A DNA stretch of 64,000 bases, taken from contig CACYPF010000011.1 of the NCBI GenBank assembly GCA_902776195.1, forward strand, positions 84,081 to 148,080, in the 5' to 3' direction. Position numbers and translations under genes: made by a program. This DNA is from an uncultured Prevotellaceae bacterium. Lineage in GTDB: Bacteria; Bacteroidota; Bacteroidia; Bacteroidales; Bacteroidaceae. The notes beneath the pieces are model-generated. The model had not been told where the DNA came from, searched no databases, and saw only the letters and a list, made by a program, of their open reading frames with translations. Numbering within the stretch: the stretch's first letter is position 1; every line of letters starts with the position of its first letter. This document shows positions 4,917 through 48,437 of this stretch, in pieces.

Positions 4917-7533
4917 TATGTAAAAAACCAAGGAATTTCCGGAGTTTTTTATCACGACACAGTTCTCCTATCCACAAGACTAAAGAGGTTGCTCCTATTA
5001 TCATCACCCAATCTTTCCAACATAAAGGAGTCACATTGAACATCCGTCCTCCTAATGAGACGATCAGGATTTGTCCAAAGAACACCAGGAGCGCAATGAA
5101 TAAGAAACCCTTGCAACCCCGTAGTATCAATGCACTTCCCCCCGTAGCATAGGCACGGGCATTGAACAGATTCCAGAACTGAAGCATCACAAAGATGGTG
5201 AAGAACATACTTTGCTCATAGAGTGACCACCCATGACGCTCGTAAGTATAAAGCAGGAAGAGGAGAAGGACGAAGAAGGAGCACCCCACCCCGATAATCT
5301 GCCATGCCATCGCACGGTTGATAATAAAAGCACGACGGTCACGCGGTTTTTCCCTCATCACCGCAGGAGAAGGAGGTAAGGAAGATAATGCCATCGCCGC
5401 AAAGGTATCCATAATCAGATTGACCCATAACATCTGCGTTACCGTCAATGGGACCTCCGTCCCCATAAAGGCACCTGCCAATACTATCAGACAAGCCGCG
5501 ACATTTACCGTTAACTGGAAAAGGATGAAACGCTGGATGTTCCGGTAGAGGGAGCGTCCCCACATCACAGCCCGTCCTATGCTGCTGAAAGAATTATCAA
5601 TAATAGTAATATCAGAAGCTTCCTTGGCAACCGATGTACCATCGCCCATGGAGAGTCCCACATGAGCCGCCTTCAGGGCAGGAGCATCATTGGTACCGTC
5701 ACCAGTGACGGCAACGACCTGTCCCAACTGCTGTAAAGCGACAACAATCCGTTTCTTGTCCATTGGACGGGCACGGGCTATCACTTTCAAGTCCATCACC
5801 CTTTCCAACACCTCCTCATCCGTTAAGGCAGAGAACTCTGGACCCGTGATTAATTGTTTGTCAGTATCCTCTTCCGTCCACAGTCCCACCTGTCTGGCTA
5901 TCTCGCAGGCTGTAGCTGCAGTATCTCCTGTCACGATTTTCACAGCAATACCGGCATTCATACACTCACGGACAGCTGGAGGCACATCCTGACGGACCGG
6001 GTCGGAGATAGCCACAACACCCAGGAATACCATCTGGTCAGTTATCAGCTGCTGGTTCTCTATCACTTTTTCGCCCTCATCCAATCGCTTGTATGCAAAA
6101 CCCAGCGTACGCATTCCCTGTTTCTGGAAAGCAAGGAGTCTTTTCTGTATGCCTGCACGGTTCTCCTCCGACATGACACACTTTCCGTACACAATCTCCG
6201 GAGCTCCCTTGACATAAAGGATCCTCTCCTGACCTTTCCTGATGACTACCGCCATCAACTTACGCTCTGTAGAGAAGGGCAGCTCTTCCTCATATACCAC
6301 TTCATCTTTCAATGCCTGGTAGTCAATGTCCTGGTCATGTAACCACAAGAGTAAAGCTCCCTCTGTCGGATTCCCCAAGACGACAGGATGTCCGCCATCC
6401 CTTACTTGCAAGGATGCCGTCGTGTTAACAGCAATACCTTGACAGACAATATCCTTATTGTCTTGGCTATCCATATCAAAACATGCCTCATAGACATGCA
6501 TCTGGTTCTGTGTCAGTGTACCTGTCTTATCCGTACAAATGACGGTAGCAGCTCCCATGGTCTCACAAGCATGCATCTTCCGCACCAGGTTATTGGTCTT
6601 CAGCATTCGACGCATGCTATAGGCAAGACTTAGTGTCACAGCCATGGGCAATCCTTCCGGGACAGCGACGACGATCAGTGTCACAGCAATCATGATGGTC
6701 TGAAGGACATAAGAGATGAAAGGAACCCACGCGAAGTCATTATGCACAAAGAACATCAGGACCCTTCCTACAATGACAAGGAAAGCAACCCCATAGCTCA
6801 TTCTTGCTATCAGCGTCCCTAACCTGTCCAGTTGCTCATTCAGCGGAGTCTTGACAGTATCGTCAATCCGGGCTGCCTCATATACCTTTCCATTCTCCGT
6901 CCTGTCACCCACGGCATGCACTTCAAAGACACCATGTCCTTCCATGACCTTGGTACCGCGAAGTACCTGATTGGTGGGGAAGGTAGCCTCCTGGTCGAAC
7001 TCCTGTTCCTCTACACTTTTATGACAAACAGGTTCTCCTGTCAGCGTCGACTCATCGACATTCATGGATACTGCCTCCAAAAGCATACCGTCCGCAGGAA
7101 TCTCATCACCAGTATTGATTAAGACGACATCCCCTACTACTATGTCACATTTGGCGACCTGCTGTCTCTGACCATTGCGGATAACCATGACAGGCTCCTC
7201 GTCATTCACCTGGTTGAGAATGGCAAACTCCCGGTCTGCCTTTACTTCAAACAGAAAAGCCATTCCCGTGGCTAACAGAATGGCTACAAAGATACCAACT
7301 GGCTCAAAAAAGACAGTACTCCCCTCACCCAGTATATAATATTCGTAAAAAGAGATACCTACCGACAACAATCCCGCTACCAATAATATGATGATGAGAG
7401 GATCCTTAAACTTTGTCAGGAAGCGTTTCCATAAAGGAATCTTTTCAGGCTCAGAAAGTATGTTGGCACCGTATCTCTCACGACTCTCCAGTACTTCCGA
7501 GTCTGTCAGTCCTGTATAATGCTGTTGTTTCAT
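4912..7533 (-). CDS. Calcium-translocating P-type ATPase, PMCA-type
   Basis: 873-residue inner-membrane cation pump, probably exporting Ca2+. The ATG at 7533 (MKQQHYTGLTDSEV) was chosen over one 30 bases upstream because it gives the usual family N-terminus. The actuator loop has LTGEP, the phosphorylation site is CTDKTGTLTQNQ (aspartate near residue 334), and the hinge is GDGTNDAPALKAAHVG (near 613). The membrane calcium site VAVPEGLPMAVTL and the WVNLIMDTFAAMALSSLPPS stretch are typical of type IIB pumps. About ten membrane segments are visible. A minus-strand -7 box ends only 5 bases before the ATG, so the message may be leaderless. The stop codon lies inside repeat family R1. Confidence 0.93.
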   Translation of the reverse strand: MKQQHYTGLTDSEVLESRERYGANILSEPEKIPLWKRFLTKFKDPLIIILLVAGLLSVGISFYEYYILGEGSTVFFEPVGIFVAILLATGMAFLFEVKADREFAILNQVNDEEPVMVIRNGQRQQVAKCDIVVGDVVLINTGDEIPADGMLLEAVSMNVDESTLTGEPVCHKSVEEQEFDQEATFPTNQVLRGTKVMEGHGVFEVHAVGDRTENGKVYEAARIDDTVKTPLNEQLDRLGTLIARMSYGVAFLVIVGRVLMFFVHNDFAWVPFISYVLQTIMIAVTLIVVAVPEGLPMAVTLSLAYSMRRMLKTNNLVRKMHACETMGAATVICTDKTGTLTQNQMHVYEACFDMDSQDNKDIVCQGIAVNTTASLQVRDGGHPVVLGNPTEGALLLWLHDQDIDYQALKDEVVYEEELPFSTERKLMAVVIRKGQERILYVKGAPEIVYGKCVMSEENRAGIQKRLLAFQKQGMRTLGFAYKRLDEGEKVIENQQLITDQMVFLGVVAISDPVRQDVPPAVRECMNAGIAVKIVTGDTAATACEIARQVGLWTEEDTDKQLITGPEFSALTDEEVLERVMDLKVIARARPMDKKRIVVALQQLGQVVAVTGDGTNDAPALKAAHVGLSMGDGTSVAKEASDITIIDNSFSSIGRAVMWGRSLYRNIQRFILFQLTVNVAACLIVLAGAFMGTEVPLTVTQMLWVNLIMDTFAAMALSSLPPSPAVMREKPRDRRAFIINRAMAWQIIGVGCSFFVLLLFLLYTYERHGWSLYEQSMFFTIFVMLQFWNLFNARAYATGGSALILRGCKGFLFIALLVFFGQILIVSLGGRMFNVTPLCWKDWVMIIGATSLVLWIGELCRDKKLRKFLGFLHT

Positions 7534-40250: not shown

Positions 40251-41156
40251 ATGACAATAGACTTGTATATCAACAAAGCAAATGACTACGCACAGGACAT
40301 CGGTGCGCCAGTCTATCATCCCCATGTCTCAGTGATTCACTACGACGAGGTGGGTGAGATACGACATACGCTGAATCGTATCAACTGTTACGGAATTTTC
40401 TTGCAGAAGGAATTTCCGGAAGGGCTGACTTATGGTATCGGCACCTATCATGAGGGCGATGGCTCACTCATGGCATACTCCCCTGGGCAGATTGGCGGCA
40501 AATTGGATGATGGTACCCTTCGGCGGTACCACGGCTGGGTGCTGCTATTCGACCATGAGTATATCCAAGGGTCATTAATAGAACAAAAACTCGAAGGGTA
40601 TCATTTCTTCTCATACTATTCAAACGAAGCACTCATTCTGACCCCAGAAGAAAAAGACATTCTTTCTCAGCTAATGGCAAACCTGCGCAAGGAGTTGGAG
40701 CTACAGTCTAATACTTTTGGGCATGAGGACATTGTCAGAAATTACATTCTGCTAATCCTTGACTACTGCAACCGCTTTTATTTCCGTCAGTTCAAGGAAA
40801 TGGCAGCTGAAGACAGCGACATCCTCAGTCGATTCCAACAGGTACTGAACAATTATTATGCCTCTGGTAAACAGAAGTCGGACGGACTGCCAAGCGTAAA
40901 ATATTGTGCGGGCGAGCTATGTCTTTCACCCGGCTATTTTGGGGACATCGTAAGAGGTGCGCTTGGCGAGAGCCCGAAGGACTATATACGGGGATTCGTC
41001 ATAATGCGTGCCAAAAACCTCATTCTAAGTGGCAAGTCCATCGCTCAAATCGCTGAAGAATTAGGATTTGAATATCCCCAGCATTTTACCCGTATGTTCA
41101 AGAATACTACTGGCAAGACACCAAGACAGTTCCTTGACGAACAGCGCAAGAAATAA
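40251..41156 (+). CDS. AraC-family transcriptional regulator 1
   Basis: 301 residues: an N-terminal cupin-like sensor region (HPHVSVIHYDEVGEIRHTLN, YSPGQIGGKLDDGTLRRYHG) and a C-terminal AraC double helix-turn-helix (VKYCAGELCLSPGYFGDIVR, KSIAQIAEELGFEYPQHFTR, TGKTPRQFLDE). It is closely similar in plan to the regulator at 43064-43963; both share GAP..HP.VSVIHYDE and FEYPQHFTRMFK. It probably controls neighbouring exported enzyme genes in response to a small effector that has not been identified. Confidence 0.9.
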   Translation: MTIDLYINKANDYAQDIGAPVYHPHVSVIHYDEVGEIRHTLNRINCYGIFLQKEFPEGLTYGIGTYHEGDGSLMAYSPGQIGGKLDDGTLRRYHGWVLLFDHEYIQGSLIEQKLEGYHFFSYYSNEALILTPEEKDILSQLMANLRKELELQSNTFGHEDIVRNYILLILDYCNRFYFRQFKEMAAEDSDILSRFQQVLNNYYASGKQKSDGLPSVKYCAGELCLSPGYFGDIVRGALGESPKDYIRGFVIMRAKNLILSGKSIAQIAEELGFEYPQHFTRMFKNTTGKTPRQFLDEQRKK

Positions 41157-43046: not shown

Positions 43047-43054
43047 TACCTTTG
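43047..43054 (+). promoter_or_regulatory. -7 box of AraC regulator 2
   Basis: TACCTTTG lies just after the hydrolase stop and only 9 bases before the ATG at 43064, so the leader would be about four bases long. Confidence 0.5.
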
Positions 43055-43063
43055 CTGCCAGCA

Positions 43064-43963
43064 ATGGAAAAAATCCTCAGAGTCCACAACGTTAACGACT
43101 ATGCCCATTATATTGGTGCACCTGAGTTACATCCGCTCGTCTCGGTCATCCACTACGACGAGTTAGAACACTGTCGCCACTCCCTCAACAACTATGATGT
43201 CTATGCCCTGTTTATCGGAGACGAGGAATTGGAAGACCTCTCGTATGGTCAACTCCAGTACGTCCTGCAACGCCATGCGCTGATGACGGTCTCTCCGGGA
43301 CAGATAGGAGGCAAGACCGATACAGGTGAGGAAATCCATACCAAGGGCTGGGCTCTGCTCTTCGACACTGAGCTGTTGCGAGACACGGAACTGGGTCGTC
43401 GCATCTCTGGCTATACCTTTTTCTCCTACAATATTAGTGAAGCCTTACTGCTGACCGATGAACAACGGCAGAGCATCGTCAATCTGCTGGAACAGATTCG
43501 ACAGGAACTGCTTCACGAGGAGGATGTCCACACCCTTCGCATCGTCACCTCACAGATCGAACAGGTCTTGGAACTCGTGGCACGTTACTATACACAACAG
43601 CTCTCCACATCGGTCAAATCGACAAACTCCGACCTGCTACCACGCTTCGAACATCTGCTCCATCAGTATTATGACCATCATCTGCAGCAAGAAAACGGGT
43701 TGCCTACAGTGAAATATTGTGCTCAGCAACTGTTCCTGTCACCCAACTATTTCGGTGATCTCATCCGTGAACTGACTGGCGGCACTGCCTCATCACACAT
43801 CCGTCGCTTTATTTTGCAGCGTGCCCAGCAATTGCTCATCAGCGGTGCCACTATCACCGAGACTGCTGAGCGACTGGGATTTGAATATCCGCAGCATTTT
43901 ACCCGAATGTTCAAAAAACATTTTGGAATTACCCCTTCCGAATATATCAACAATCTACCATAA
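43064..43963 (+). CDS. AraC-family transcriptional regulator 2
   Basis: 299 residues from ATG 43064. It parallels regulator 1 throughout: sensor part with IGAPELHPLVSVIHYDELEH and VSPGQIGGKTDTGEEIHTKG, DNA-binding part with VKYCAQQLFLSPNYFGDLIR, ATITETAERLGFEYPQHFTR and FGITPSEYIN. The two regulators bracket the exported cyclophilin-like and hydrolase genes, so a duplication followed by specialisation is likely. The LUD-domain gene follows 15 bases later. Confidence 0.9.
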   Translation: MEKILRVHNVNDYAHYIGAPELHPLVSVIHYDELEHCRHSLNNYDVYALFIGDEELEDLSYGQLQYVLQRHALMTVSPGQIGGKTDTGEEIHTKGWALLFDTELLRDTELGRRISGYTFFSYNISEALLLTDEQRQSIVNLLEQIRQELLHEEDVHTLRIVTSQIEQVLELVARYYTQQLSTSVKSTNSDLLPRFEHLLHQYYDHHLQQENGLPTVKYCAQQLFLSPNYFGDLIRELTGGTASSHIRRFILQRAQQLLISGATITETAERLGFEYPQHFTRMFKKHFGITPSEYINNLP

Positions 43964-43978
43964 GCACATCATTAAAAT

Positions 43979-44617
43979 ATGACACCACAAGAAGAGAGAA
44001 ATCAGAAACTGGCAGAAAGGATGATTAAGAATCTGAACCGCCGTAACATGGAAGCTTTCTACTGTCCTACTGGTAAAGAAGCAGTGATGAAGGTTTCAGA
44101 ACTCATAGCCGATGGAAGTACCGTAACATGGGGAGGAACGGTAACAGTTCGTCATCTTGGTATTCCTGAAGTATTGAAAGAGAGAGAGACACTCAATGTC
44201 CTTGACCGTGATGCCATAGAGACCCCAGAGGAAAAGGAAGCGATGTATCTCAGGGCTTTCACTGCAGATGTGTACCTGACAAGTGCCAATGCCATTTCGG
44301 AAGATGGGGTTATTGTGAATATCGACGGCAATGGCAATCGTGTGGCGGCTATCACCTGGGGACCGAAAAAGGTCATCTTCGTCATCGGGCTTAACAAGGT
44401 TGCCCAGACGGTAGAGGCAGCTTTGGCAAGGGCAAGAAGTACAGCATCACCCACCAATGCCCAACGTTTCGACATTAAGACACCCTGCAGGACAGACGGT
44501 ACATGTCATAACTGCAATTCACCAGAGAGCATTTGCAGCTACGTTCATTTCCTAAGAAACAGCAGGAACAAGGGACGACATGTCGTTGTTCTTGTTGGCG
44601 AAAATTTAGGCTATTAG
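43979..44617 (+). CDS. LUD-domain protein (LutC/YkgG-like)
   Basis: 212-residue cytosolic protein with the LUD (DUF162) domain found in lactate-utilisation proteins. Motifs are EAFYCPTGKEAVMKVSELIA, GSTVTWGGTVTVRHLGI, YLTSANAISEDGVIVNIDGN and KKVIFVIGLNKVAQTVEAAL. A cysteine cluster near the C-terminus (CRTDGTCHNCNSPESIC) could bind a metal or an iron-sulfur centre and is not part of the core LUD domain. No LutA or LutB partner is present. It is probably cotranscribed with AraC regulator 2. Confidence 0.85.
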   Translation: MTPQEERNQKLAERMIKNLNRRNMEAFYCPTGKEAVMKVSELIADGSTVTWGGTVTVRHLGIPEVLKERETLNVLDRDAIETPEEKEAMYLRAFTADVYLTSANAISEDGVIVNIDGNGNRVAAITWGPKKVIFVIGLNKVAQTVEAALARARSTASPTNAQRFDIKTPCRTDGTCHNCNSPESICSYVHFLRNSRNKGRHVVVLVGENLGY

Positions 44618-44622
44618 AATTC

Positions 44623-47325
44623 CTATATGATCAGTTTCACGCGGAAGCCACGCTTGGTGGGTTCCTCAATCACCTGAAGACACTGTGCGGAAAGTTCGCT
44701 TCGCTGGGTGTCGCTCAACGGCGTGTCGGTCATCTTCTCCACCATGAAGTCAAGGGCGGTGACCAGCGACTGCTCACTATGGGTAATGCGCACGGTGATG
44801 GGCCGGTACGGTGCCATCGCACCAGATAGCATCTGGTCTGTGAGCCGGTGAGCCATCTCCTCCTTCTCGCTGATGCCGTACTTGTGGCAGAAGGCACTGA
44901 TGGTGGAGTGCATGCCCAGAAAGTCGAAGTCGGAACCGCTAATCTCAAACACCTCCTTGCGGATGCGTTGGATAAAGGCTTTGGTGGCACTGTGTATGGG
45001 GTTCTCAAAGATTTGCTCTGGTGAGCCATCCTCATGGATATACCCGTCATACATGAAGAAGAGGCGTGTCGAGACATCGTGGGCAAACTTCATTTCGTGA
45101 GTGACGATGAGCATCGTCATACCCTCCTGCGCCAGTTGACGAATAACGCTGAGCACCTCGCCAACCATCGTCGGGTCAAGAGCCGACGTGGGTTCGTCAA
45201 AGAGGATAACCTCGGGGTTCATGGCTAAGGCACGGGCAATGGCCACACGCTGTTTCTGACCGCCAGAGAGACTCGACGGGTAGACATCTGCCTTCTCAGC
45301 GAGTCCAACCTTGCGCAGCAGAGTCAGTCCCTCTTTACGCGCTTCCTCCTCCGACTGGTGAAGCAGTTGACAAGGTGCAAAGATGACGTTCTCCAGCACA
45401 GTCTTATGTTCGAAGAGGTTGAACGACTGGAACACCATGCCCATCTTCTGACGCAGTCTGTTGACGGGATACCCCTTGGCGAGGATGTCCTTCCCGTTGA
45501 CGATGATGCTGCCGCCACTGGGTTGCTCCAACAGGTTCAGACATCGCAGAAAGGTACTTTTGCCCGTGCCCGACGGTCCGATAATGGAGATGACTTCGCC
45601 ACGATGGATGTCGACTGAGATGTCACGCAGCACATCAAGACTGCCATAGCTCTTGCGGAGGTGCACGATTTTAAGTGAAGTATCAAGAGGGGAGGATGAA
45701 GAGTTTGCTACATCCGCTGTAGTGTTGCGCTTGCGGCGGATGAAGAACCATGCACTACCACCTATGATTAAAATCAGGAAAGCTCCAGCAAAAAAGAATA
45801 TGCTTTTTTCCTTCTCAGGGTGAATCTGGGTCTGTTGGGATTGGGAAGAGAGTATTCCAATCTCTCCTTTCCGTGTGATGAACAGAATGTACGAATCGAC
45901 ATAGCCGTCGGAGAAGAGCACTTGTTTCTGTCGCTCCTCAGTGACACTGATAGCCCCCATTGCCATATCTGCCTTACCCGTCTGCACGGCGGGAATCTGG
46001 GCGGCGAAGTCCATCACGAGAAATTCCAGTTTGTAGTTGCGCTGGTTTGCCCACTCTGTCAGGAGGGCTGGTTCCAAACCAGACAATTTTCCAGAATTGA
46101 TGAAATTGAATGGTGGCATTGTGGGATAGGTTGCCACACGCAGGGTGCGTCCCGTGCCCACCTGTTCAGGTATCGCCATTGCCGAAGGGTCGTCAGACTT
46201 TTGCCAGCGGTCATAAACCTTCTGGTATGTGCCGTCACGGCGGATGTCGGCAAGGAATCTGTTGAAGTCCTGCTGAAGGGCTGTGTTGTCCTTCCTAAAG
46301 ATAGCACCAATAGGGATATTCCCCAGTCCGGCACTTACCGAGTCAACCTTGTCGGCTATTTCCCTACTGAAATTCAAGGTCAGGCTCTCACTGCCCGCCA
46401 CATCCAGCTTACCGTTCTCCAAGGCAGCCAGCAAATCGGTTTGTGAGGTCATACGGAGGATGTCGGCATCGGGAGCCATGCTGGTGACGGCAAGGTCCTG
46501 TACGCTGCCTATGATAACGCCGACACTCTTGCCTTTAAGTGCCTTGAATACGGGAGGAATCTCAGTTTCGGCTACAGACTTTACAGGCTCCTCTTCCGAC
46601 AGATAGCCAGCCATTCCCATTAACAACAACAGCACAGCCGCCGCAATACCTTTCACGCGCTGACGCTGTACCAACGACTGCAGCAAGAGTCCGATGAGCC
46701 ATGCCGCGACAAAGTAAATAATCGCAGTCAGGATAAGGGGGAAGAAGGCATCAAACGTCCGCGAGCGTATCAGGTCGGAGGCACGTGTCATGTCGGCAAC
46801 GGCGATATAGCCCACGATACTCGTGCCTTTCAGCAGACTTATTATCTCGCCTTGATAGACGGGCATCACCGCCCTGACTACCTGTGGCAGCACAACATGG
46901 AAAAACGTCTGTCGCCGGGTGAAACCAAGTGCCAGACCAGCCTCCGTCTGTCCACGGTCGATTCCCTGGATGGTGGTGCGCAGCATCTCGCTGATGTATG
47001 CCGCTGTGTTCATGGCGAAGGTGACGATAGCGACCACGATACCCGTAGCGTCCATCGGTGCCATCACCACATAGTACATCAGCATGAGCAGCACAAGCAC
47101 CGGTGTGCCTCGCATCAGGTCGATATACACTTTAGCTATACGCTGCAGATATCGTCTGCGACTCATGCGCATCCAACACACCAGTCCACCTAAAAGCGTA
47201 CCTAAAACGGTTGCAAAGAGTGTGATAAGAAGCGTCACCTGCAAACCATCGAGAATCATTTGATATCGATTCTCCACTAACAGATTATTGCTAAAACTAT
47301 CTACTATATTTTCTATTAACCTCAT
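44623..47325 (-). CDS. One-polypeptide amino-acid ABC importer with permuted binding domain
   Basis: 900 residues holding a whole polar-amino-acid importer. Residues 1-220 form a HisM/GlnP-type permease with the EAA loop [19 protein letters not shown] (about 130-148). A helix near 226-241 leads to a solute-binding region at about 260-487 and a further membrane helix at 508-529. An ATPase follows at 551-790: Walker A GPSGTGKS (583-590), LSGGQ (686-690), Walker B VILFDEP, H743. About 105 residues of unknown type end the protein. The binding region is reversed relative to GlnH: the C-lobe half ([11 protein letters not shown] to [11 protein letters not shown], 264-374) comes first and the N-lobe half ([14 protein letters not shown] to [16 protein letters not shown], 395-487) second. 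A minus-strand -7 box is at 47400-47407. Confidence 0.9.
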
Positions 47326-47435: not shown

Positions 47436-48437
47436 TTACTTAGAAATCGTGTCCGAGTTCTGGTTGAATGAGAGCAGCATGGACAGCGCAAGGACACCGA
47501 AGATGACGGCAAGACTGACCGGGGTAGACACCTCTATGTGAGGAATGTTCAAGTTCAGACCTACGACTGCACCCAGACCATTGATATACTCGTTCATAGC
47601 AAGCAGCATCTTGATGCCGACGAAAATAAGGATGATACCCAGTCCGTACTTCAAATACTTGAAGTATTTTGCCACAGCAGCCAGTGCAAAATACAGGGCA
47701 CGGAGTCCGAGAATGGCAAAGATGTTGGAGGTGAGCACAATAAACGGGTCGCGGCTGACGCTGAAGACAGCAGGAATACTGTCAACAGCAAAGGCGACAT
47801 CGGTAGTCTCGATGACCAACAATGCGACAAACAACGGTGTCGCCATACGCCGTCCGTTCTCAACGATGAAGAAGCGGTCGCCATGCATTCGGTCGGTCAC
47901 TGGATAGAGTTTGCGGAACCACCGCACGATGATGTTCTGTGACGGGTCAGATAGCTCGTTGTCATCGTGGGTAAACATCTTACCACCCGTATAGAGCAGG
48001 AACAGTCCGAAGAGTCCTAACACCCATTCGAAGCGCTCCACCATTGCAGCACCGGCAAAGATGAAGATGCTGCGCAACACCAGGGCACCAAAGATCCCCC
48101 AGAAGAGCACCTCATGCTGATACTTGCGCTCTATGCCAAAAAAGGAGAATAGCATAAGAAACACAAACAGGTTGTCCATCGACAGCGACTTCTCTATCAG
48201 GTAGCCTGCCAGAAACTCCAGCGCCATCTCATGAGAGTCGCCAGGATAGAAGAAATAGATACCTGCGCAGAACAACAGGGATACACCTATCCACACGGCG
48301 GTCATCTTGAGTGCTTCGCCTACTTTCACCTCATGCTGTCCTTTCTTTCCGAACATCTTCAGGTCGGCAACCAACATGAGCAATACTAACACATAGAAAA
48401 CAATCCAAGCCCAAAAAGGCAATACCATTAAATTCAT
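47436..48437 (-). CDS. TerC/Alx-family integral membrane protein
   Basis: 333 residues with about nine membrane segments. Family motifs are EFLAGYLIEKSLSMDNLFVF, LFWGIFGALVLRSIFIFAG, VIETTDVAFAVDSIPAVFSV and FAILGLRALYFALAAVAKYF, with conserved acidic residues in the membrane. TerC/Alx proteins are linked to manganese export and tellurite resistance in other bacteria. A minus-strand TAATTTTG box at 48443-48450 ends 5 bases before the ATG, so the transcript may be leaderless. It stands alone upstream of the ABC importer. Confidence 0.9.
   Translation of the reverse strand: MNLMVLPFWAWIVFYVLVLLMLVADLKMFGKKGQHEVKVGEALKMTAVWIGVSLLFCAGIYFFYPGDSHEMALEFLAGYLIEKSLSMDNLFVFLMLFSFFGIERKYQHEVLFWGIFGALVLRSIFIFAGAAMVERFEWVLGLFGLFLLYTGGKMFTHDDNELSDPSQNIIVRWFRKLYPVTDRMHGDRFFIVENGRRMATPLFVALLVIETTDVAFAVDSIPAVFSVSRDPFIVLTSNIFAILGLRALYFALAAVAKYFKYLKYGLGIILIFVGIKMLLAMNEYINGLGAVVGLNLNIPHIEVSTPVSLAVIFGVLALSMLLSFNQNSDTISK

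Follow-up and report, generated by a model that had tools for sequence, protein, structure and literature searches.

Results

A permease, a binding domain and an ATPase in one chain

In the 64,000-nucleotide stretch of DNA analysed here (the window) a single open reading frame (ORF) combines a permease, a binding region and an ATPase, as an earlier reading made from the sequence alone had claimed; both Pfam and half-domain HMMs support this. The parts of the gene are as follows.

44623..47325, minus strand: whole ORF, 900 amino acids from ATG, in the order permease, permuted binding domain, ATPase, GHKL-like extension
46651..47325, minus strand: permease domain, residues 1-225 (Pfam BPD_transp_1 at 41-222, 2e-21; transmembrane-like stretches; PM HMM)
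46591..46656, minus strand: extra transmembrane helix, residues ~224-245 (hydropathy; positive residues precede the helix)
46192..46554, minus strand: C-half of the binding domain, residues 258-378 (half-domain HMM; structure-profile and GlnH alignments)
46153..46191, minus strand: linker connecting the former C- and N-termini, residues 379-391
45862..46152, minus strand: N-half of the binding domain, residues 392-488 (Pfam, half-domain HMM, structure-profile and GlnH alignments)
45733..45813, minus strand: second transmembrane helix, residues ~505-531 (hydropathy; positive residues come after the helix)
44956..45681, minus strand: ATPase of the GlnQ/ArtP/HisP type, residues 549-790 (ABC_tran 7.6e-36; ArtP structure 2olj 6.5e-87)
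44626..44955, minus strand: extension (XT), residues 791-900, a divergent member of a GHKL (RsbW/SpoIIAB)-like domain family

Besides BPD_transp_1, Pfam placed SBP_bac_3 in two stretches (best 395-547) and ABC_tran at 566-714. The half-domain HMMs gave the order PM - C-half - N-half - NB - XT, which for this ORF (locus L001) was taken from the stop-to-stop frame, 15 residues longer. BPD_transp_1 and SBP_bac_3, with Pfam scores above the cut-offs, together with a GlnQ/HisP-type ATPase are the combination of the PAAT type. The ATPase is nearest to the GlnQ, TcyN and HisP models and to ArtP structures, and its scores stay below the NCBIfam equivalog cut-offs (GlnQ 297.4 bits vs 379, HisP 280.2 vs 466, ArtP 234 vs 369). 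The translation shows what we take to be Walker A and Walker B motifs, an LSGGQ signature and, in the permease, an EAA-type loop. The charges beside the two extra helices agree with a topology in which the binding domain is periplasmic and the ATPase cytoplasmic.

ABC importers require two permease and two ATPase domains, thus a homodimer of the fused chain is expected. The description of the gene as a whole importer is correct in that all domain types are present in one chain, which lies on the minus strand, but the chain corresponds to half a transporter.

The source is a draft genome of 42 contigs, and neighbouring genes might appear fused because of an assembly chimera or a missed stop. 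We find this hardly credible. The frame is single and open, without an internal stop, and the same architecture (permease-C-N-ATPase-extension) was present in 75 of 80 records, isolates included, these being the best 80 of 206 confirmed relatives in the genome collection. Of the 75, 71 lie inside their stretch, one is located beside a second importer and three touch the stretch end. The remaining five comprise three that are cut by the stretch end, and L168 and L175, in which no permease was detected, L175 being situated at the stretch end. Isolates named Xylanibacter/Prevotella ruminicola are among the best 80, and the nearest named relatives are Prevotella records.

The permease, both halves of the binding domain, the ATPase and the extension are under purifying selection. 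Five comparisons (simple Nei-Gojobori estimates with dS near 1) gave the following dN/dS ranges: C-half 0.063-0.17, N-half 0.038-0.086, permease 0.098-0.135, ATPase 0.058-0.061, extension 0.068-0.141. Constraint is loose in the helix and linker stretches, with values of 0.23-0.66 where dS was unsaturated.

The neighbourhood of the gene offers no hint of the substrate in the form of a shared neighbour family: none recurs in over 14 of the 81 loci compared. A TerC-like membrane protein is encoded upstream in the same orientation (ORF 47436-48437, by eye), and a LUD-domain protein on the opposite strand (43979-44617, Pfam). Two similar AraC-type regulator ORFs (40251-41156 and 43052-43963, by eye) flank a hydrolase-like ORF near the importer. 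In 15 of 166 loci, among them L159 (6966-7628), L167 (6973-7656) and L191 (6921-7580), a Cytidylate_kin2-like ORF lies close to the importer, and in several it follows the importer immediately; Pfam was run for this assignment on L177 only. Rfam gave no match at gathering score over the 64-kb window.

Order of the elements in the binding domain

The C-half contains lobe 2 from its second strand onward and the C-terminal return into lobe 1; the N-half contains the N-terminal part of lobe 1, the first hinge and the first strand of lobe 2. The canonical element order of type II binding proteins is not found in the ORF, the C-half stands ahead of the N-half. The proposal that the domain is circularly permuted is borne out by comparison of a profile with solved structures: the two halves cover canonical chains, but in exchanged order. 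A profile built from 34 sequences (A3) matched canonical binding proteins in two pieces tiling each chain with the order swapped; this was seen in four of the five chains with printed alignments (4zv1, 5t0w, 6svf and 5tuj), the fifth, 6h30, being a tandem of two canonical domains. In AncQR (4zv1) profile positions 134-233 correspond to chain residues 5-105 and positions 2-121 to residues 108-231. The profile thus spans AncQR 5-231 save two residues, i.e. all elements of the type II (SBP_bac_3) fold are present, and the ORF's own alignment covers GlnH apart from short loops. It must be added that a full-length profile match alone is no proof of permutation, since 6h30 and 4q0c, in which canonical domains stand in tandem, also give such a match over the C1-N2 junction. 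The order of the elements and their completeness, as well as conservation, family distribution and domain identities, can be read directly from the aligned sequences.

Alignment with E. coli GlnH (K-12 record) puts the new termini at about GlnH 97-101. We take the first hinge of GlnH to be at residues 85-89 and the second at 181-185. The new termini were originally placed at the first hinge; the alignment moves them approximately 10 residues past it, after the first strand of lobe 2, consequently both hinge strands are kept and both new ends are on lobe 2. The linker, counted from HMM end to HMM start, is 14-22 residues long in 194 collected C-N modules.

The residues that anchor the ligand are largely conserved. 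R465 aligns with Arg75 of GlnH, T462 with Thr72 and E313 with Asp157. Among 74 aligned modules the Arg75 equivalent is kept in 69 and the Thr72 equivalent in 63, and the position of Asp157 is acidic in 54 (D in 45, E in nine). As a counter-point, the fused protein has Glu at the last position, where Asp is usual, and the residues of the GlnH side-chain pocket, Asp10 and Phe13, are not kept in the GlnH alignment. With the Arg/Thr pair and the acidic residue retained, the binding domain should still be able to close on an amino acid.

The permuted domain in other architectures

Homologues with the same C-N order, which the sequence-only reading had suggested looking for, were found in many architectures, also outside the fused chain. 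The C-N module occurs in 176 ORFs of 166 annotated loci, three places being represented twice among the loci (L068/L227, L036/L221, L035/L181). The same HMMs revealed free-standing C-N proteins, C-N-permease, double and triple C-N-permease, C-N-permease-ATPase, permease-C-N-C-N-ATPase and permease-C-N-ATPase arrangements. Three loci (L287, L288, L290) encode three-gene importers composed of a permuted lipoprotein (in L287 at 5023-5820, minus strand), a permease and an ATPase with the extension. The N-C order was detected in four ORFs, representing three places, among the 166 annotated loci, and none of these ORFs has a permease or ATPase match. The loci were fetched with the permuted profile and the modules collected by requiring a C-half followed by an N-half, therefore the number of C-N modules is uninformative on the rarity of the N-C order; canonical (half-matching) proteins were common in the same genome searches.

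Thirty free-standing C-N ORFs are complete, and 28 of them have a lipobox-like motif. The C-half is preceded by 31-55 residues in 29 of the 30 and by 109 in one, and the N-half is followed by at most 10 residues, which leaves no space for another lobe. The existence of the permuted domain as a free lipoprotein and as an N-terminal fusion to a permease indicates that it is independent of being held at both ends. The idea that the permutation exists to tether the domain by its two ends, one to the permease and one to the ATPase, thus finds no support in the relatives.

These proteins also bear on a different explanation, according to which the region descends from two canonical domains in tandem (N1-C1-N2-C2, the GlnPQ arrangement) by loss of the outer lobes, and the remaining halves either swap between the chains of a dimer or form a non-functional domain. 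The C1-N2 junction of GlnPQ and BvgS does resemble the permuted order, and tandem homologues exist. Nevertheless, we regard this explanation as quite unlikely, although the halves might swap within the dimer: the free-standing proteins have no room for the other lobes, both halves are under strong purifying selection, the ligand anchors are kept, and an N-half ahead of the first C-half was found in 0 of 176 C-N ORFs, a single one of which (L248) carries an eroded extra C-half. Tandem homologues had been named beforehand as a possible sign of a local deletion. Tandems were indeed found, but they are of the C-N-C-N type only, and since no N-C ORF of the 166 annotated loci has a permease or ATPase match, the view that a canonical tandem of this lineage underwent local deletion is unsupported. 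We also considered local deletion more generally as the source of the C-N order and judged it unlikely, the order recurs in many architectures.

Whole-query matches were obtained in 14 of 201 genomes of the family, 18 of 295 of the order (E up to 1e-15) and 43 of 395 of the phylum (E up to 1e-18), all three being hand counts that include the own genome. Of the 43 phylum matches 38 fall in one family. The FMO protein (PF02327), which we take, as established knowledge, to mark green sulfur bacteria, was present in all five tested genomes of that family, in none of five other genomes tested and in none of 14 controls. Judged by these matches, the permuted domain occurs in Bacteroidales and in green sulfur bacteria.

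Cases outside the phylum were sought by plasmid tblastn, which yielded 1710 and 888 matching records, with 30 and 40 listed, respectively. All 30 listed matches of the first set were joined from two pieces, and so were the first eight of the second set. Five regions were checked by HMM: L273, L274 and L276 hold an N-C module, and in L272 and L275 no module passed the HMM cut. The one-piece match H40 (L272), which starts upstream of the annotated gene, was judged spurious. The matches H39, H48 and H49 span two annotated genes.

Origin of the permutation and of the fusion

In the binding-domain tree a branch with an SH-aLRT value of 95 separates 95 of 99 permuted modules from 27 canonical ones. 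In the quick tree L033 and L034 group with canonical proteins, and L136 and L137 are on a long branch among canonical ones. When all permuted rows were constrained together, the likelihood was higher (p-AU 0.707, from a test using 105 of 126 rows: 86 of 99 permuted and 19 of 27 canonical), thus a single origin of the permuted modules is not rejected and two origins are not shown. The permeases of L033 and L034 are nearer to GlnP, and their ATPase ORFs have no extension. These two loci (L033:370-2609, L034:1613-3890), with their C-N-permease and extension-free ATPase, might represent a second, independent permutation.

On the permease tree two changes are required for a fusion of the window type, one of which is dictated by branches with good support, and a single change for the C-N-permease-ATPase fusion. 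Counted in stop-to-stop frames, which may start upstream of the true start, 34 of 90 fused permeases and 10 of the 25 single ones have a lipobox-like motif ahead of the permease. These motifs would fit an origin from lipoprotein-permease fusions. At L236:704-1501 and L003:1354-4206 such a motif stands ahead of the first helix of the permease, perhaps as a relic of a lost binding domain.

It is instructive to ask which pair of halves represents the evolutionary unit. A canonical chain can be aligned without a break across N1-C2 of the tandem protein L031, so canonical pairing is possible in that protein. The gap between N and C of adjacent tandem modules is 11-30 residues vs seven residues in three of the four canonical ORFs and 49 in the fourth, two of the four representing the same place. 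Of 31 free-standing proteins, 27 have both their halves closest to the first module of tandem proteins. The C- and N-halves of a tandem module share their best foreign module in just 16 of 40 cases. C-N as the unit is favoured by the existence of free-standing proteins, by the resemblance of 27 of these to first modules and by the wider spacing from N to C, and disfavoured by the 16 of 40; taken together, the comparisons indicate that the unit is C-N. The permutation is independent of the fusion and probably arose before it, the fused chain being a later rearrangement. For a permutation that is untied to the fusion, and probably older, the two-ended hold fails as a reason.

The C-terminal extension

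The profile of the extension family (A7, 22 extensions) aligned with a profile of nine GHKL proteins or domains of neighbouring genes (A8) with 98% probability in hhalign (E 2.2e-13), vs 0.2% for a STAS control. The extension set A6, which includes the window copy, gave 97.3% against GHKL, and as a query against solved structures had nothing below E 0.27. Pfam HATPase_c_2 was matched by six of 21 extension members (best 5.5e-07), and the full protein of the fused ORF had no HATPase match in Pfam. A Glu pair is kept in 20 and 22 of the 22 extensions. The N-box Asn, the G1 Asp and the GGLG motif are each absent from all 22 (the window copy is outside this set) and present in all nine neighbouring GHKL sequences. 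The extension, left unassigned in the sequence-only reading, is thus an RsbW-like domain of GHKL descent, and its ATP site, to judge by the missing motifs, seems to have been lost; it is probably a docking site for a STAS protein, or the remnant of one.

The extension is present on every uncut importer ATPase ORF except those of L033 and L034, one weakly matching ATPase in L233 being taken as unrelated and left out of this tally. Two types can be distinguished: among 74 fused relatives with a full extension 51 have the window type and 23 the L036 type, and three further extensions are too short. The window permease is 82% identical to that of L036 and the ATPase 63%, whereas the window ATPase shares 70-73% identity with the stand-alone ATPase genes of L088, L086, L149, L150 and L213. 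This difference suggests that the back half of the fused gene was probably exchanged, apparently with separate ATPase genes. The two ATPase-extension types (44626-45681 in the window) occur behind the same front part of permease and binding domain, in L036, L067, L068, L190 and L232 vs L035, L138, L154, L206 and L213.

Partner-switching genes near the relatives

A phmmer search detected an ORF for a SpoIIE-type phosphatase in 16 of 166 family loci, in 15 of them on the strand of the importer, and the four phosphatase ORFs that were run against Pfam (L186, L260, L281, L284) all scored above the cut-off. In L281 (1418-7753) the genes for phosphatase, C-N-C-N-permease, ATPase-extension, STAS and GHKL proteins follow each other in this order on one strand, overlapping or adjacent; Pfam recognized dCache-HAMP-SpoIIE, STAS and HATPase_c_2 above the cut-off, and the extension only below it (0.002). 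Thirteen stretches were read. The importer, STAS and GHKL genes stand in one run in L281, L282, L286 and L291, in L291 without the phosphatase. In L283 STAS and phosphatase genes immediately precede the importer, in L292 and L293 phosphatase-GHKL fusions adjoin it, and in L289, L284 and L285 the switch set is roughly 1-4 kb away. No switch genes were found in the stretch read of L287, L288 and L290, which keep the extension.

A phosphatase gene was linked to the importer (within about 6 kb on the same contig, with importer numbers per genome estimated) in 15 of 72 genomes, vs 1.33 expected. G477, G355, G642, G595, G619 (SpoIIE neighbour already known) and G906 were left out of the 72. One linked genome, G289, has 50 SpoIIE matches and is weak evidence, and in some genomes (e.g. 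G865) contigs end near the gene. Furthermore, 11 of the 15 linked genomes belong to one family (11 of 36 genomes), thus the tail probability overstates the evidence for linkage. The own genome contains four phosphatase and two STAS_2 matches, none of them on the contig of the importer; the role suggested for the extension of the fused protein therefore derives from the relatives.

This linkage, and operons that also encode a SpoIIE phosphatase, a STAS protein and a GHKL kinase, raise the question whether the protein is a sensor rather than a pump, its permuted domain and GHKL-like extension feeding mainly into partner-switching signalling. We consider this improbable, if worth keeping in mind: both the permease and the ATPase are conserved, with dN/dS values that indicate purifying selection, the contig that carries the importer in its own genome shows neither a phosphatase nor a STAS match, and L287, L288 and L290 retain the extension with no switch genes in the stretch read.

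Discussion

The interpretation that we hold to be very probable is that the gene encodes, in one chain, half of an ABC importer of the polar-amino-acid type with a permuted type II binding domain, the permutation preceding the fusion, and with a GHKL extension. Two fused chains would form the transporter. From the last permease helix the chain would pass through the added helix to the periplasm, the site of the binding domain, and the second helix would lead it back to the cytoplasmic ATPase. With the old termini joined by the 14-22-residue linker and the new ones in the first loop of lobe 2, both membrane anchors would be attached to lobe 2. The binding domain would close on its amino acid, dock on the permease and trigger ATP-driven import, and the extension would be a pseudo-kinase-like GHKL domain. 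We infer the fold, the dimer, the substrate class, transport, the order of events and the role of the extension from the sequences and their relatives.

A wider proposal, to which we give somewhat less than even weight, is that Bacteroidales and green sulfur bacteria possess an unrecognised class of amino-acid importers that have a circularly permuted type II binding domain and carry a pseudo-RsbW on the ATPase, a pump that in many species would be gated by a partner switch encoded in its operon. The complete set would consist of a Cache-HAMP-SpoIIE phosphatase, a STAS protein and a GHKL kinase in the operon of the importer, and the STAS protein, once dephosphorylated, would part from its kinase to dock on the extension of the ATPase. 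The fused protein may, again a shade below an even chance, count among the most fused forms of this class, having kept its extension although its contig shows no switch genes. The GHKL-like extension and the SpoIIE/STAS/GHKL operons amount to a testable proposal of an ABC importer as a target of partner switching. Among titles and abstracts of the open-licence literature, a body that leaves most subscription papers outside, we found neither a permuted type II binder, nor this fused importer, nor a partner switch tied to an ABC importer.

It is useful to compare the fused importer with known systems. E. coli GlnHPQ and HisJQMP share with it the domain families, the ligand anchors and the ATPase type, but they are encoded by separate genes, have the canonical order and, judged by the lengths of their ATPases, lack a GHKL-like extension. 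In GlnPQ canonical binding domains precede the permease and the ATPase is separate. GlnPQ-type transporters (Lactococcus GlnPQ; PDB 6h30, two such domains) resemble the fused importer in having type II domains covalently joined to the permease, and resemble its relatives in having them in tandem. The two differ in that GlnPQ has the N-C order with the domains before the permease, whereas in the fused importer the half-domain HMMs show the permease first, the permuted domain after it and the ATPase in the same chain.

The three domain families of the SpoIIAB/RsbW - SpoIIAA/RsbV - SpoIIE/RsbU systems are all represented in the operons of relatives, and the extension of the importer is GHKL-like. 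The extension family shows the HATPase_c_2 homology of the RsbW/SpoIIAB kinases, but unlike these it has lost the N-box Asn, the G1 Asp and GGLG (0 of 22 each).

The closest precedent for the permutation itself is TpMglB-2 (Tp0684, PDB 5JX2), which PMC4990184 presents as a membrane-anchored, circularly permuted sugar-binding protein of a proposed 'Type Ic', with a topology that its authors regard as a possible adaptation to anchoring. TpMglB-2 differs from the fused importer in having a type I sugar fold vs the type II (SBP_bac_3) fold, another cut and a fourth cross-over. At the level of family matches, which do not compare folds, the fused importer has SBP_bac_3 above the cut-off and no match to a type I sugar-binding family. 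Natural circular permutation of a binding protein is described there for one type I sugar-binding group (PMC4990184). The present family would add a widespread case of type II permutation, with free, tandem, triple and fully fused forms, and these natural variants make the effect of the anchoring position of the binding domain testable.
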